Source: Synechococcus sp. GFB01 (GTDB taxonomy: Bacteria > Cyanobacteriota > Cyanobacteriia > PCC-6307 > Cyanobiaceae). Taken from it: 21,136 nt of DNA. Positions 1,282 to 7,469 of the stretch are shown one piece after another. Below the pieces are notes generated by a model that was not told where the DNA came from, did not search any database, and worked only from the letters and a program-made list of their open reading frames with translations. How positions within the stretch are numbered: position 1 is the first letter of the stretch; every line of letters begins with the position of its first letter. The stretch covers positions 654 through 21,789 of the forward strand of contig NZ_LFEK01000111.1 in the NCBI RefSeq assembly GCF_001039265.1, in the 5' to 3' direction. Position numbers and translations under genes: made by a program.

Positions 1282-2064
1282 ATGGCCGGCCACAGCAAGT
1301 GGGCCCAGATCAAACGCACCAAGGCGGTGGTCGACGCCAGGCGCGGTGCCGTGTTCACCAGGCTCGGCCGGGAGATCATGGTGGCGGCCCGCGGCGGTGC
1401 CGATCCGGCCGGCAACTCTCAGCTGCGCACGGCGATCGAGAAAGCCAAGGCGGCCGGTGTGCCCAACGCCAACATCGAGAGGGCCATCGCCAAGGGGTCG
1501 GGCCAGCTCAGCGGTGAAGGCGCCACCTTCGAGGAGGTGCGCTACGAGGGCTATGGCCCCGGCGGCGTGGCCGTGCTGGTGGAGGCGTTCACCGACAACC
1601 GCAACCGTACGGCCGCCGACCTGCGCCTGGCCTTCAGCAAGCATGGCGGCAATCTGGGCGAAACCGGCTGCGTGGGCTATCTGTTCGAACAGCGCAGCGT
1701 GGTGCGCCTGGTCGGTGCCGATGGCGGTCCGATCGCCGAGGAGGCCCTGCTGGAGACCCTGCTGACCCTGGAGGAGCAGGGCGGCCCCGGCGCCGTGGGC
1801 TATGAGCTGCTCGGGGATGGAGCCGAGGTGTTCGGAGCCTTCGCCGACCTGGAAGCGCTTCAGGCGGGACTGCGCAACCAGGGGATGGCCGTGGAGGCCT
1901 GGGAGCACCGCTGGATTCCCCAGACCAGCTGTCCGCTCAGTGAGCCCGAGCAGCTGCGTCGCTGCCTGAAACTCCTGGATGCCCTCGAGGAGCTTGACGA
2001 CGTGCGCAGCGTGACCGCAAACCTCGAGGCCGACGAGGCGCTGCTGCATGCCCTCGCCGAGTGA
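1282..2064 (+). CDS. YebC/PmpR (TACO1-like) family protein
   Basis: This 260-residue protein opens with [20 protein letters not shown], the hallmark of the YebC/PmpR/TACO1 family. It continues with [19 protein letters not shown] (about 50-68) and the loop [19 protein letters not shown] (about 89-107). Family members have been described as transcriptional regulators (PmpR) and, more recently, as ribosome-associated factors that help translate proline-rich stretches; which applies here cannot be read from sequence. Length is normal to slightly long. It follows truB by 45 bases on the same strand and is the last intact gene before the insertion-sequence block that begins at 2101. Confidence 0.93.
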
Positions 2065-2092: not shown

Positions 2093-2104
2093 TGCATGGC
2101 CTAG

Positions 2105-2117
2105 GAGGCTGCTGAAA
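2105..2117 (+). repeat. IS5-family left terminal inverted repeat
   Basis: GAGGCTGCTGAAA, an exact reverse complement of 3453-3465, preceded by the CTAG target duplicate. Confidence 0.85.
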
Positions 2118-2273
2118 TAGCGGTCCATCCGAGCCTTCCTGCACCGGATTCAGAGTCCAGAGTCCCTGACGCCTCCAATCGGAAGACGGTCTTGGCGTAC
2201 TGGGCAGTGATCCCCGACGTCAGCGGCGAGGTCCAGCCGGACGATCGCTGCTGAGACCCTCGCACCTGCCCTT

Positions 2274-3409
2274 TCATGCCAGGACCTCCCGTGGGCTGAG
2301 CAGGTTGGCCAGGCGGATCAGGTTGTAGGCCACCACGTGCAGCCGAAACACCGCTCCCACCCGCGATCGCCCCCTGGTCTTGAGCTGCCGCAGTCCGGCG
2401 GCCTGTTTGATCCAGCCAAATACCTGCTCGATCCGTCTCCTGGCGTTGATCGAGCGGGCATAGCCCGCATGGCGAACGGTGCGGCCGTCGATGGCGGAGC
2501 GCCGGCGGGTCTGGATGTTCTGGGTGACATGGGGCGTGATGCCGGCGATGCGCAGATCGGCCACGAAATCCCTGGTGTCGTAGCCCTTGTCGGCCCCCAG
2601 TGTCTTCTGGTGGGCACCCGGCAGTGAGCGCGCCATCCGCACGGCCGCCGCACGCTCCCCGTAGCCGTCTGCTGGGGTGACCTCGCTGGCCACCACCAGA
2701 CCGTGCCGGTTCTCCATCAGGCAGTGCCCCAGATAGCTGAGGAACGCCCCAGTGCTGTTCGACTTGCGGAACAGACGCGCCTCCGCGTCGCTGCTGGAGC
2801 GATGCGTCTGGTTGGAGAGCAGCAGGCCGCGGAAGTCGCCCTTGGCGCGCTTCTTCTGCTTGCCAGGAGATGATCCAAACCCATTCCCGCCACTGGACGG
2901 TGGTGGATCGTCGTCGATCCCATCGATCCGCTCCAGGGAGCCATGAGAGGCCCAGGCCCGCAGCAGGGTGCCATCCACGGAGAAGTGCTCGGAGCTCAGC
3001 AGCGGCATGACCTCCGGCGAGGCCAGCAGCAGCTCCAGGAACATCGCCATCAGCTCCTCGTTGAGCAGCCGGTCGCGGTTCTTGGTGAATGTGGTGGGAT
3101 GCCAGACGGGATCGTCCGGGTTGAGGCCGACAAACCAGCGAAACAGCAGGTTGTAGTCCAGTTGCTCGATCAGCATCCGCTCCGAGCGGATGCCGTAGAT
3201 CGCCTGCAGCAACAGGGCCAGCAGCAGCTGCTCCGGCGGGATCGAGGGGCGCCCACCCTCGGGGTAGAGCCTGCAGAAGGTGGGGTTGAGGCGATCCAGG
3301 GCTTGATCGGCCAGCCGCCGCACCTGCCGCAGGGGATGGCCTTGGGGATCCGCTCTTCTGTGGAGACGTAGGAGAACAGAGGACCGGTGCGTTCCTGCTG
3401 GCCGCGCAT
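2274..3409 (-). pseudogene. IS5-family transposase, frameshifted near the N-terminus
   Basis: The long frame (start-like GTG at 3321-3323, stop at 2274) encodes about 349 residues with a DUF772-type N-terminal region followed by a DDE domain. The likely catalytic residues are D117 (FSVDGTLLRAW), D245 (GADKGYDT) and E299 (RRRIEQVFGWIK). The natural N-terminus lies in another frame, from the ATG at 3407-3409: MRGQQERTGPLFSYVSTEE, then RIPKAIP. The two frames join if one G is restored near 3336-3342 (AAGGCCATCC read as AAGGGCCATCC). So the copy carries a 1-base deletion about 22 codons in. A short Ser/Gly/Pro-rich stretch (about residues 138-155) lies in the insertion between the first and second catalytic aspartates. 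The element would be inactive unless translated from the internal GTG or unless the deletion is a sequencing error. Confidence 0.85.
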
Positions 3410-3452
3410 CCGCTCAGTGCCGTTGGGCCATTCTCCCGCGGCTGGACCAGTT

Positions 3453-3465
3453 TTTCAGCAGCCTC
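3453..3465 (-). repeat. IS5-family right terminal inverted repeat
   Basis: TTTCAGCAGCCTC, an exact reverse complement of 2105-2117, followed by CTAG. Confidence 0.85.
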
Positions 3466-4555
3466 CTAGTGTCCCGTCCCGGAGATTTGCGAACAAAGTC
3501 GCTGGAGCTTCTCCAGGATTGAATCCGCGTTTGCGGTCCAGTTGAACGGCGCTTTGGTCTTGTTGTAGGCGGCCACGAACTGCTCGATCTTGGCGATCAG
3601 CTCCTTGACGCTGGAGAAGCTGCCGCGCCGGATCGCCCGCTGGGTGATGATCCCGAACCAGCGCTCCACCTGGTTCAGCCAGGAGGCGTATGTGGGCGTG
3701 TAGTGCACGTGGAAGCGGGGCCTCTGCGCCAGCCACGCCCTGACCTTGGCGTGCTTGTGGGTGCAGGTGTTGTCCACCACCAGATGGACGTCCAGATCTT
3801 CCGGGACGGACTTCTCGATCTGCCTGAGGAACCCCAGGAACTCCTGGTGCCGGTGGCGGGGTTTGCACTGGGTGATCACTTCTCCTGTGGCCACGTCCAA
3901 AGCCGCGAACAGGGTGGTGGTGCCGTGGCGGATGTAGTCGTGAGTGACGCCTTCCACGTAGCCCAGACCCATGGGCAGGAGCGGCTGGGTGCGGTCCAGG
4001 GCCTGGATCTGCGTCTTCTCGTCGACGCAGAGCACCATCGCCTTGTCCGGCGGGTTCAGGTACAAGCCAACGATGTCCCGGACCTTCTCAACAAAGAAGG
4101 GTCGGTCGAAAGCTTGAAATGCTTCTGGCGGTGGGGCTGCACCGAGAAGGTCTGCAGCCAGCGGTGGACCGTGGTCTTGGAGATCCCAGTCGCTGCAGCC
4201 AAGTCCGAGCGCTCCACTGGGTGCTGCCATCGGTTGGCTTGGTCTGCAGGGCCCGGTTGATGACCTCGGCCACCTTGTCGTCCTCGTAGGTGCGGGGCCG
4301 GCCAGGACGCAGTTCGTCATGAAGGCCCTCGATGCCCAGATCGAGGTAGCGCTGCCGCCATTTGCCCACCGTTGAGCCGCGGACTCCAAATTGCTTGGCA
4401 ACAGCGGTGTTGGTGTCACCAGCAGCGCAGGCCAGCACGATCTGCGCCCGCTGAACGATCGAATGCGGCAAGGTCCTTGATCCAGCCAGGCTCTGGAGCT
4501 GGCTGGTCTCATCAGCCGACAGCTCCAGAGGAGCCATGGGGCGACCAGTCGGCAT
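3466..4555 (-). pseudogene. IS630-family transposase, copy 1, with two frameshifts
   Basis: The frame from ATG 4553-4555 begins MPTGRPMAPLELSADETSQL, with the helix-turn-helix region GVRGSTVGKWRQRYLDLG. It loses its frame near 4199-4203, where AAGTCC stands for AAAGTCC in the intact copy. The DDE half (VLCVDEKTQIQ, HLVVDNTCTHKHA, WLNQVERWFG) resumes in a different frame from about 4105 downward, after a second missing base near 4108 (GGGTCGG against GGATCGG plus a substitution). The intact sister gene at 5451-6542 makes the defects plain. The stop codon TAG at 3466-3468 consists of the TA target duplication plus a flanking base, not element sequence. It is non-functional as read. Confidence 0.88.
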
Positions 4556-4613
4556 GAAACGACTCCCCGAGGAGACACTTCATATTCTACCGGCTATTTG
4601 CGGGACGGCACAC
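3469..4613 (-). mobile_element. IS630-family insertion sequence, copy 1
   Basis: This 1145-bp element is flanked by TA at 3467-3468 and 4614-4615, the target duplication expected for the IS630/Tc1/mariner group. Imperfect terminal inverted repeats are visible: GTGTCCCGTCCCG at the left end and GTGTGCCGTCCCG read inward from the right end. It is a near-duplicate, in the same orientation, of the element at 5454-6600. The target TA lies inside the CTAG duplicated by the neighbouring IS5 element. Confidence 0.9.
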
Positions 4614-4617
4614 TAGC

Positions 4618-4659
4618 TGTTCTGTCTCAGCAGGTTGTTCAGTGACAAGGGTGTGAGGC
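4618..4659 (+). repeat. IS481-like left terminal inverted repeat
   Basis: Imperfect inverted repeat of 5404-5449. Shared blocks are TGT at the tip, CAGGTTGTTC, TGACAA and GGTGTGAGGC. Confidence 0.65.
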
Positions 4660-4705
4660 CGCTACGGGTTGAGGTGCGACCCACCAACCCAGACCTCACG
4701 CACCT

Positions 4706-5367
4706 ATGCAGAGCCACCCCAATGCCTGTCTGACGCAGAAGGGGCGCCTCCGCCTGGTGACCCAGCACCTGGACCACGGTCGCAGCCTGTCGGAACTCGC
4801 CTCTGAGAACGGGATCAGCGCCTCCGCTGCGCCTACCGCTGGCTGGCCCGTTACAGCTCTGGCGGTCCAGCCTCTCTGGTGGATCGACGCAGCGTTCGCC
4901 GCACCAAGCGGCGCATGCTCGATCCACGGCAACTGCAGTACGCTGTGGATCTGCGGCACCAGCGCTTGCACCTCCGGCACATCGCCCAGCTGCTCCGGGC
5001 TCCGTTCTCCACCGTCGCCAGAGCCCTCAGCCGACTCGGACTGGGGCGACTGAGGACTCTGAACCCCAAGCCTCCCGTTCAGCGCTACGAGTGGGAGCGA
5101 CCGGGCGACCTGATCCACATCGACGTCAAATCCCCCGCCCGGTTCCGCAAGGTGGGCCACCGGATCACCGGCGACCGCCAGCGCCACAGCGGTCAGGCCG
5201 AGGAAATCTGCCGCCACCGTGCCCGCGTCTACGAGCAGGCCCGTCAGCGTCAACCCCGCCGCTGGAGCCGCTCCACCCGCTGCTGGCATCAGCCGGGTGT
5301 GGTCTTGATCAATCCGCCACCACATGAAACCGAGATCAATCCAGCTACGTTGGTGATGGCCGCCTGA
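4706..5367 (+). pseudogene. IS481-family transposase remnant, frameshifted, with foreign-looking tail
   Basis: From ATG 4706 the frame reads MQSHPNACLTQKGRLRLVTQ and on to SELASENGIS, a typical IS481 helix-turn-helix start. Near 4820-4828 it must shift frame to continue as RCAYRWLARYSSGGPASLVD, then the DNA-binding second half. The start of the DDE domain follows: QRYEWERPGDLIHIDVK with the first catalytic Asp, then VGHRITGDR near 5150-5180. Beyond this the IS481 catalytic core is missing. Instead the same frame carries ARVYEQARQRQPRRWSRSTR and ends near VLINPP. That tail resembles the C-terminal end of other (IS3-like) transposases more than IS481, though the match is by eye only. The remnant cannot encode an active enzyme. 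Confidence 0.72.
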
Positions 5368-5403
5368 TCAGCAGCAGGGGCGTCATCTTTCCTGACAGTC
5401 ACC

Positions 5404-5449
5404 GCCTCACACCTCTTTGTCAGCCGGAACAACCTGGTGGCGCTACACA
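5404..5449 (-). repeat. IS481-like right terminal inverted repeat
   Basis: Imperfect inverted complement of 4618-4659, ending ...ACA next to GCTAG. Confidence 0.65.
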
Positions 5450-5450
5450 G

Positions 5451-6542
5451 CTAGTGTCCCGTCCCGGAGATTTGCGAACAAAGTCGCTGGAGCTTCTCCA
5501 GGATTGAATCCGCGTTTGCGGTCCAGTTGAACGGCGCTTTGGTCTTGTTGTAGGCGGCCACGAACTGCTCGATCTTGGCGATCAGCTCCTTGACGCTGGA
5601 GAAGCTGCCGCGCCGGATCGCCCGCTGGGTGATGATCCCGAACCAGCGCTCCACCTGGTTCAGCCAGGAGGCGTATGTGGGCGTGTAGTGCACGTGGAAG
5701 CGGGGCCTCTGCGCCAGCCACGCCCTGACCTTGGCGTGCTTGTGGGTGCAGGTGTTGTCCACCACCAGATGGACGTCCAGATCTTCCGGGACGGACTTCT
5801 CGATCTGCCTGAGGAACCCCAGGAACTCCTGGTGCCGGTGGCGGGGTTTGCACTGGGTGATCACTTCTCCTGTGGCCACGTCCAAAGCCGCGAACAGGGT
5901 GGTGGTGCCGTGGCGGATGTAGTCGTGGGTGACGCCTTCCACGTAGCCCAGGCCCATGGGCAGCAGCGGCTGGGTGCGGTCGAGAGCCTGGATCTGTGTC
6001 TTTTCGTCGACGCAGAGCACCATCGCCTTGTCGGGCGGGTTCAGGTACAGGCCAACGATGTCGCGGACCTTCTCCACAAAGAACGGATCGGTGGAGAGCT
6101 TGAACGATTTCTGCCGGTGGGGCTGGACCGAGAAGATCTGCAGCCAGCGGTGAACTGTTGTCTTTGAGATCCCAGTCGCCGCTGCCAAAGTCCGAGCGCT
6201 CCAGTGGGTGCTGCCATCGGTTGGCTTGGTCTGCAGGGCCCGGTTGATGACCTCGGCCACCTTGTCGTCCTCGTAGGTGCGGGGCCGGCCGGGACGCAGT
6301 TCGTCATGAAGGCCCTCGATGCCCAGATCGAGGTAGCGCTGCCGCCATTTGCCCACCGTTGAGCCGCGGACTCCAAATTGCTTGGCGACAGCGGTGTTGG
6401 TGTCACCAGCAGCGCAGGCCAGCACGATCTGCGCCCGCTGAACGATCGAATGCGGCAAGGTCCTTGATCCAGCCAGGCTCTGGAGCTGGCTGGTCTCATC
6501 AGCCGACAGCTCCAGAGGAGCCATGGGGCGACCAGTCGGCAT
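5451..6542 (-). CDS. IS630-family transposase (full length)
   Basis: This 363-residue protein starts at ATG 6540-6542, with GGGGAG upstream. The N-terminal half holds a helix-turn-helix pair: AVAKQFGVRGSTVGKWRQRY at about 51-70 and ATGISKTTVHRWLQIF at about 122-137. The DDE domain follows with D179 (VLCVDEKTQ), D262 (HLVVDNTCTH) and E298 (WLNQVERWFG). The D-to-E spacing of 35 residues is typical of IS630/Tc1 enzymes. It performs cut-and-paste transposition into TA dinucleotides. The last element-encoded codon is His363; the stop codon TAG is formed by the duplicated TA plus the next flanking base. It is intact and may be active. Copy 1 has the same gene with two frameshifts. Confidence 0.93.
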   Translation of the reverse strand: MPTGRPMAPLELSADETSQLQSLAGSRTLPHSIVQRAQIVLACAAGDTNTAVAKQFGVRGSTVGKWRQRYLDLGIEGLHDELRPGRPRTYEDDKVAEVINRALQTKPTDGSTHWSARTLAAATGISKTTVHRWLQIFSVQPHRQKSFKLSTDPFFVEKVRDIVGLYLNPPDKAMVLCVDEKTQIQALDRTQPLLPMGLGYVEGVTHDYIRHGTTTLFAALDVATGEVITQCKPRHRHQEFLGFLRQIEKSVPEDLDVHLVVDNTCTHKHAKVRAWLAQRPRFHVHYTPTYASWLNQVERWFGIITQRAIRRGSFSSVKELIAKIEQFVAAYNKTKAPFNWTANADSILEKLQRLCSQISGTGH

Positions 6543-6600
6543 GAAACGACTCCCCGAGGAGACACTTCATATTCTACCGGCTATTTGCGGGACGGCACAC
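5454..6600 (-). mobile_element. IS630-family insertion sequence, copy 2 (intact)
   Basis: This 1147-bp element is flanked by TA at 5452-5453 and 6601-6602, with the same GTGTSCCGTCCCG-type terminal repeats as copy 1. The target TA is the centre of the CTAG at the right end of the IS481 remnant. The two IS630 copies are direct repeats enclosing that remnant. They are nearly identical over both outer parts but differ by roughly 11% in a central patch of about 260 bp. Confidence 0.92.
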
Positions 6601-6638
6601 TAGGATTGAAAAGATCCATATGAGCAGGGTAGGCAAGC

Positions 6639-7469
6639 ATGGGATCGTTCACAGGCATTCTGCTCATCCTGCTTATCCTTCTTGGCAGCAAGGGCATCAA
6701 ACTAGATCGCGAATACCAGCGTGGCGTGATCTTTCGGCTGGGGCGGCTGAAGGGAGTGATGGGGCCGGGCCTGTACTGGATCGTGCCGTTTGTTGATCAG
6801 AAGGTGCAGCTGGATGTACGCACCAAAACCGTCAGTATCGAGCCCCAGGAAACGGTCACCGCTGACAGCGTGACCATCAAGGTCAACGCCGTTCTGTATT
6901 ACTGCATTCTCAATGGCGACATGGCCGTGATCCGCGTCGAGAACTATCAGCTGGCAGTGTATCAAGTTGCCCTGACCACACTGCGCAATGTGGTGGGGCA
7001 GAATATGCTGGATGACGTCTTGCAGAACCGCGACAAAATCAATCTGAAGGTTCAGGAGATCGTCGACGAAATCACGGCACCCTGGGGAATCGAGATTGAA
7101 CGTGTGGAGATCAAGGACGTCGAGATTCCGCTGGGCATGCAACGAGCCATGGCCAAGGAAGCGGAAGCACTGCGCGAGAAGCGCGCCCGTCTGATCAAGG
7201 CTGCCGCGGAGCAGGAGGCGTCCATCAAGCTCTCGGAAGCCTCCAAGACCATCCTGCAGAACCCCCTGGCCCTCGAGCTCAGGCGCATGCAGATGCTCAC
7301 CGAGATCGGAGCCGAGAACAACACCACCACAGTCGTGATGATCCCGTCCGACCTGATCACGCTGGCCAGGCACTGGTCGGCTCCGGCCGACAGGCCACCC
7401 AGCAAGGAGGAGGAAAACCTGGAGAACCCGCTGAGCGAATCGAGCCCATTCGATTCCGACCAGGTCTGA
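6639..7469 (+). CDS. SPFH/band-7 (stomatin/slipin-like) protein
   Basis: This 276-residue membrane-anchored protein begins with a hydrophobic anchor (about residues 5-17, GILLILLILLG). A band-7 domain follows: YQRGVIFRLGRLKGVMGPGL (about 26-45), the central strands with DVRTKTVSI (about 59-67), and RNVVGQ with the coiled helix EALREKRARLIKAAAEQEAS near the C-terminal half. The final 35 residues are acidic and look disordered. Stomatin-like proteins form oligomeric scaffolds in lipid microdomains and often work with membrane proteases; no NfeD partner gene is visible here. The start is preceded by AGGGTAGG. Only 36 bases separate the start from the end of IS630 copy 2, so its ancestral upstream region has been displaced. 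The pcm gene follows 40 bases downstream. Confidence 0.93.
   Translation: MGSFTGILLILLILLGSKGIKLDREYQRGVIFRLGRLKGVMGPGLYWIVPFVDQKVQLDVRTKTVSIEPQETVTADSVTIKVNAVLYYCILNGDMAVIRVENYQLAVYQVALTTLRNVVGQNMLDDVLQNRDKINLKVQEIVDEITAPWGIEIERVEIKDVEIPLGMQRAMAKEAEALREKRARLIKAAAEQEASIKLSEASKTILQNPLALELRRMQMLTEIGAENNTTTVVMIPSDLITLARHWSAPADRPPSKEEENLENPLSESSPFDSDQV

Follow-up and report, generated by a model that had tools for sequence, protein, structure and literature searches.

Mixing of insertion sequence copies very probably joined a CTAG-linked row of IS5, IS630 and IS481 elements in a Synechococcus draft genome

The IS481 family of insertion sequences (IS) follows an NCTAGN target rule, and IS630 of Shigella sonnei was reportedly described by Tenzen et al. 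in 1990. Here, we analysed a row of four elements (one IS5, two IS630 copies and one IS481 remnant) that are joined at copies of the tetranucleotide CTAG within a 21,136-nucleotide stretch of DNA from Synechococcus sp. GFB01 (referred to as the window, i.e., positions 654–21789 of contig C15 in draft genome G000, which comprises 2.34 Mb in 125 contigs and is 78% complete and 5.2% contaminated). Among the closest described systems, IS630 of S. sonnei shows a transposition preference for the TA in 5′-CTAG-3′ (Tenzen and Ohtsubo 1991, by its title, via PMC2170065), IS5 of Escherichia coli makes a YTAR duplication (PMC10359306, in the section consulted), and MITEPsy1 of Pseudomonas syringae is a 100-base miniature element, probably derived from IS5, that lies after CTAG or YTAA (PMC3189936, in the section consulted).

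The IS630 copies studied here appear to resemble that of S. sonnei in using a TA target inside CTAG, but in this one genome the CTAG often seems to be made by another IS. The window IS5 shares the YTAR target with its E. coli counterpart (here CTAG, TTAG or CTAA), but is a hybrid copy and apparently belongs to a different subgroup. Other IS481 copies of the genome likewise have CTAG at their ends, whereas the window copy is a remnant. MITEPsy1 resembles 101- and 141-base elements that adjoin IS630 at two loci of other genomes (L086 and L072, respectively), although the consulted section of its description (PMC3189936) gives it no adjoining IS630. The components (IS5 with YTAR, IS630 with CTAG, and CTAG or YTAA as the site of a miniature element resembling IS5) are already known, and the row is a fresh example of them. 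A literature search combining insertion sequence, nesting, CTAG and target duplication found no paper, and none on IS630 nesting at CTAG stood among the matches listed, judged by title.

A preliminary description of the row, made from its letters, had interpreted it as four insertions stacked on successive copies of one ancestral CTAG. Its CTAG flanks and TA pairs were confirmed by the letters, but we conclude that the row was very probably joined by mixing of IS copies (in the cell or during assembly), and not by four jumps into one site. Five CTAGs (2101–2104, 3466–3469, 4613–4616, 5451–5454 and 6600–6603) lie exactly at IS boundaries. The first is the left flank of the IS5 element (2105–3465, minus strand, with ends GAGGCTGCTGAAA and a transposase frame at 2274–3323), which was assigned to the IS5 family by NCBIfam model NF033581 (233 bits; cut-off 140). 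The second CTAG is common to IS5 and the first IS630 copy (IS630-1; 3469–4613, minus strand), which has an interrupted frame and was recognised by DNA comparison (97% likeness to an IS630 family copy). The third is common to IS630-1 and the IS481 remnant (4617–5450, plus strand), and the fourth to this remnant and the second IS630 copy (IS630-2; 5454–6600, minus strand, with a transposase frame at 5451–6542 including the stop), which scored 276.7 bits with NCBIfam model NF033545 of the IS630 family (cut-off 100). The fifth is the right flank of IS630-2. IS630 in the window has TA on both sides and terminal inverted repeats GTGTCCCGTCCCG / GTGTGCCGTCCCG. The IS481 piece at 4879–5367 (162 residues) scored 45.5 bits (E 6.7e-12), far under the model cut-off of 224 bits, and is best regarded as a family-related remnant and no intact member.

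CTAG occurs at a density of ~0.82/kb (35 in 42.5 kb of own-genome stretches around IS copies, with the main IS masked), which is lower than the ~3.2/kb expected from the base composition of the window. Since the five CTAGs coincide with IS ends although CTAG is scarce, those of the row are above chance, and chance CTAGs were ruled out as an explanation of the row by this scarcity and the exact match to the IS ends.

The row is flanked on the left by yebC (1282–2064, plus strand) and on the right by a band-7 gene (6639–7469, plus strand), both assigned via Pfam. Had the row grown from one ancestral site, these two genes should be neighbours in relatives, as the preliminary description proposed. 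In a gene-order comparison with 12 genus relatives, nagB, and not band-7, follows yebC in 11, while the stretch from the 12th ends inside yebC; no empty yebC/band-7 gap was found among these 12 by DNA search. Moreover, contig C41 of the same assembly reads yebC-CTAG-IS5-CTAG-nagB with an unmixed IS5. Over its first 834 bases, C41 differs from the window by a single base, in a C run, and yebC is present with the same letters on two contigs (C15 and C41).

The element copies themselves were also found to be mixed. The first 970 bases of the window IS5 are identical to the C41 copy, while past position 903 a single difference separates it from the C3 copy, and these two likenesses together place a switch at 3008–3074, from the C41 copy on the left to the C3/C58/C64 lineage on the right. 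Both lineages are identical across this 67-base zone. Similarly, IS630-1 is a hybrid of two IS630 types, changing between 3905 and 4064 from the type of C58, C59 and IS630-2 to that of C28 and C64. Because of the gene order, contig C41 and these hybrids, the GATTG beside band-7 is not the partner half of the CTAG on the yebC side, and the claim that taking out the four elements leaves one ancestral site is not supported.

We propose that IS5 (via YTAR), IS630 and IS481 all prefer CTAG, as a result of which their copies would come to abut at common CTAGs, and that IS630 may keep rows going by rebuilding CTAG; the rebuilding can be read from its ends (see below), and it might also drive further insertion. 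On the yebC side, C41 and the gene order show that one IS5 was inserted into a CTAG that lay between yebC and nagB. The right part of IS5, together with IS630, IS481, IS630 and band-7, was very probably attached via an exchange within the IS5 copy, and IS630-1 contains another such exchange, each marked by its switch point.

Several observations weigh against this reading. The continuity of the window is putative, being that of the draft assembly. An exact IS5-CTAG-IS630 joint, searched for in 386 genomes of the phylum with one mismatch tolerated, was present in one, i.e., in this genome alone, in five copies. One IS5 copy with a single mapped end (C15b) is flanked by ATAA, which is not YTAR. 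Finally, an unmixed row on contig C58 indicates that real CTAG-sharing rows may exist, if that contig is correct.

As to how the copies became mixed, we lean towards an assembly chimera, to which we give about an even chance, over recombination in the cell. The true locus would then be yebC-IS5-nagB, and a ~1 kb IS5-IS630 junction of the C58/C59 type would have bridged it to the band-7 row. This is consistent with the occurrence of yebC on two contigs, with the identity of the IS5 lineages over the switch zone, with the closeness of IS copies to contig ends (distances of 41 to 834 bases) in C59, C3, C97 and C41, and with a gene on contig C47 that breaks at an N. The latter gene (C47:24411–24740; L223), encoding the ATP synthase a-subunit (atpI), matches positions 2–103 of 217 of its family only, and unrelated-looking DNA follows (phycobilisome genes by eye), which is likely a misjoin. 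IS copies are exchanged in cells too, however, and two IS5 copies with swapped duplications (C28:29939–31300 with CTAA/CTAG, and C97:6619–7980 with CTAG/CTAA) suit either origin; their swap shows that these copies, like the window IS5, exchanged parts, whether in the cell or through the assembly.

Cellular recombination, in which IS5 and IS630 copies brought the band-7 row to yebC, perhaps in only some of the cells, strikes us as a real though lesser prospect. Both switch points lie within homologous elements, the swapped duplications of C28 and C97 agree with it, and, according to the abstract of PMC11708052, duplications are frequently lost because IS copies recombine. On the other hand, it requires two close exchanges and leaves yebC on two contigs. 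As a separate observation, one and the same flank occurs past CTAG after two different IS630 copies (C59:1–41 and C28:32453–32494), with a 22-base core at those two places of the genome only, either through exchange or as a contig-end artefact.

That four successive insertions struck copies of one ancestral yebC/band-7 CTAG is highly improbable: CTAG stands at every junction, in keeping with what each family targets, but the yebC-nagB order, contig C41 and both hybrids contradict it. It is just as improbable that IS630-IS481-IS630 moved as a composite transposon into the right CTAG of IS5; two IS630 copies in the same orientation do flank IS481, TA bounds the whole unit, and a preference for TA in CTAG has been described for a composite transposon with IS630 (Tenzen and Ohtsubo 1991, by title, as cited in PMC2170065), yet IS630-1 is a hybrid and the unit lacks a second copy, since the IS481 piece matches fully at one place in the genome only. 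A tidy insertion history drawn from matching tetranucleotide flanks can thus be overturned by gene order and copy comparison, which calls for caution in interpreting IS rows in draft genomes.

The target preferences on which the preliminary description relied were upheld across the genome. YTAR (as CTAG, TTAG or CTAA) was found on both sides of all eight IS5 copies with both ends mapped, with equal duplications on the two sides in six of them and swapped ones between the C28 and C97 copies. Three further IS481 copies, all on contig C28, start directly after CTAG plus one base, and represent two distinct flanks because two of them share their upstream letters. IS630 was located at CTAG in 6/6 copies found, each of which adjoins another IS at one end (IS5 in five cases, the IS481 remnant in one). 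The preliminary description had also suggested scanning for other chains of the CTAG-IS-CTAG type. The second row mentioned above (C58:14385–18687; L006) is one such chain and reads CTAG-IS5-CTAG-IS630-CTAG-IS1182-CTAG.

A further suggestion concerned enrichment of IS630 at IS-made CTAGs. Genome-wide, ~1,930 CTAGs are expected (scaled from the 35 in 42.5 kb, in stretches chosen around IS), and IS5 copies contribute ~12 (hand count from the mapped ends). The probability of finding five of six IS630 copies beside IS5 would then be 5.5e-11 if CTAGs were picked independently and at random, or 5e-6 if a tenth of them could be hit without harm, an independence that fails in both cases. These figures overstate the association, as several of the IS630 copies are related: the entire IS5-IS630 pair is common to C58 and C59 (99.5%), whose junction segment recurs in the window, and a single IS630 type is found in both C64 and C28. 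The joints would count as two to four events. The transposase-3′ end of IS630 points to the neighbouring IS in all six copies, and this uniform orientation is read as common descent of the junctions. A co-mobile IS5-IS630 unit was considered and found not to be general, as the IS5 and IS630 lineages conflict between C64, C28 and the window. As to whether the genes around IS5-IS630 on C64 and C28 adjoin each other in relatives, 3 of 11 flank pieces were searched, and the left flank on C64 matched its own genome only.

Wherever both IS630 ends could be placed by alignment, they read GTG...CAC, i.e., the element starts with G and ends with C. Insertion at the TA of CTAG leaves C-TA-G on each side, and CTAG is rebuilt on both sides because the ends of IS630 itself supply the G and the C. 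The earlier claim that insertions regenerate their target is supported for IS630, on both of its sides, and this regeneration may drive later insertions. Target-made stop codons have been noted in some IS. The IS630 transposase lacks a stop of its own, and the next codon is TAG or TAA in 68 of the 74 distinct copies with an aligned last residue. This stop consists of the target TA plus one flanking base, as in IS630-2 (TAG at 5451–5453, within the CTAG that it shares with IS481) and at survey loci L018–L126. As CTAG is its own reverse complement, TAG results in either IS630 orientation. The sequences show that the stop is derived from the target, and selection may have favoured it. A literature search for an IS630 stop codon made by the target gave nothing relevant, judged by titles and the openings of abstracts.

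IS630 was also surveyed outside this genome, in 80 loci from named genomes, the best of 155 that transposase similarity had retrieved, and in 29 loci of family relatives, two sets that partly overlap in organisms. CTA was found at 159 of 182 placed ends, repeats included. After removal of 18 repeats and of ends that were short, N-bearing or without a starting TA, TAG pointed outward in 137 of 147 distinct TA-flanked ends of the IS630 subfamily. An IS5-like end motif, widened post hoc, adjoined 6/137 IS630 ends versus 1/759 other CTAG sides (Fisher 7e-5); this control excludes 120 sides that fit the IS630 end pattern, and its sole match comes from the L086 miniature element, at the end away from the joint. 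Four of the six joints are otherwise backed, i.e., by an IS5 transposase beside the joint (L064 and L079) or by short elements of 141 and 101 bases with both ends found (L072 and L086, respectively). With the queries used, no IS5 transposase was found beside the joint in L080, L096 and L208, and the partner end was not found within the stretches examined in L064, L079, L080, L096 and L208. Outside the Synechococcus genome, either IS630 end can face the neighbour (3′ in L064 and L079; 5′ in L072, L080, L086 and L096).

An IS1182-like motif adjoined 3/137 IS630 ends versus 1/759 other CTAG sides. At locus L018, taken from a family relative with a one-contig genome, the CTAG beside IS630 leads directly into an end identical to the right-hand one of the C58 IS1182, and the transposase of this locus is 89% identical to that of C58. 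L056 has an IS1182-like end, yet a nearby frame appears IS3-like by eye. On plasmids, where 16 of 564 matching records were examined and ends were accepted with at most one mismatch, nine ends were obtained in five loci (L207–L211), with TAG outward in 9/9 and the IS5-like motif in 1/9 (L208, where the nearest annotated transposase is of the IS256/Mutator type). The flanks of L211 equal those of L081 in the main survey, which leaves seven new ends in four loci. The other 11 plasmid loci were left out (ends with 3–4 mismatches or none); among them is L221, where a transposase annotated as IS5-family lies directly upstream, with the joint unmapped.

The wider idea of a shared CTAG survives, as there are other bacteria in which this IS630 adjoins IS5, IS1182 or miniature elements across a CTAG. 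Tentatively, CTAG might be a shared and renewable landing pad, which IS5, IS481, IS1182 and miniature elements duplicate and which IS630 rebuilds while taking its stop codon from it. Each insertion would then make another more likely, and unrelated elements would accumulate in rows in genomes where CTAG is otherwise scarce; if this were true, target supply alone could explain clusters of unrelated IS elements.

Two arrangements were noted among the surveyed loci. L094 holds a 260-base element (L094:3765–4024; both ends GAGCCTGTTGCAC) with CTAG on each side, between two IS630 pieces, and in L119, L122 and L080 IS630 lies in tandem with, or beside, another IS630 end across a common TA or CTAG.

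Concerning the right flank of the row, DNA searches of the 12 genus relatives returned no band-7 counterpart bar one 30-base match, a search that a distant band-7 could escape. The pcm-like gene downstream was uninformative as to the former neighbour of band-7, since in protein comparison the matches, in 4/12 relatives, were confined to the final part of the query, and DNA search gave short pieces only. The band-7 gene does match nine genomes from other families of the class, and was perhaps acquired or lost.

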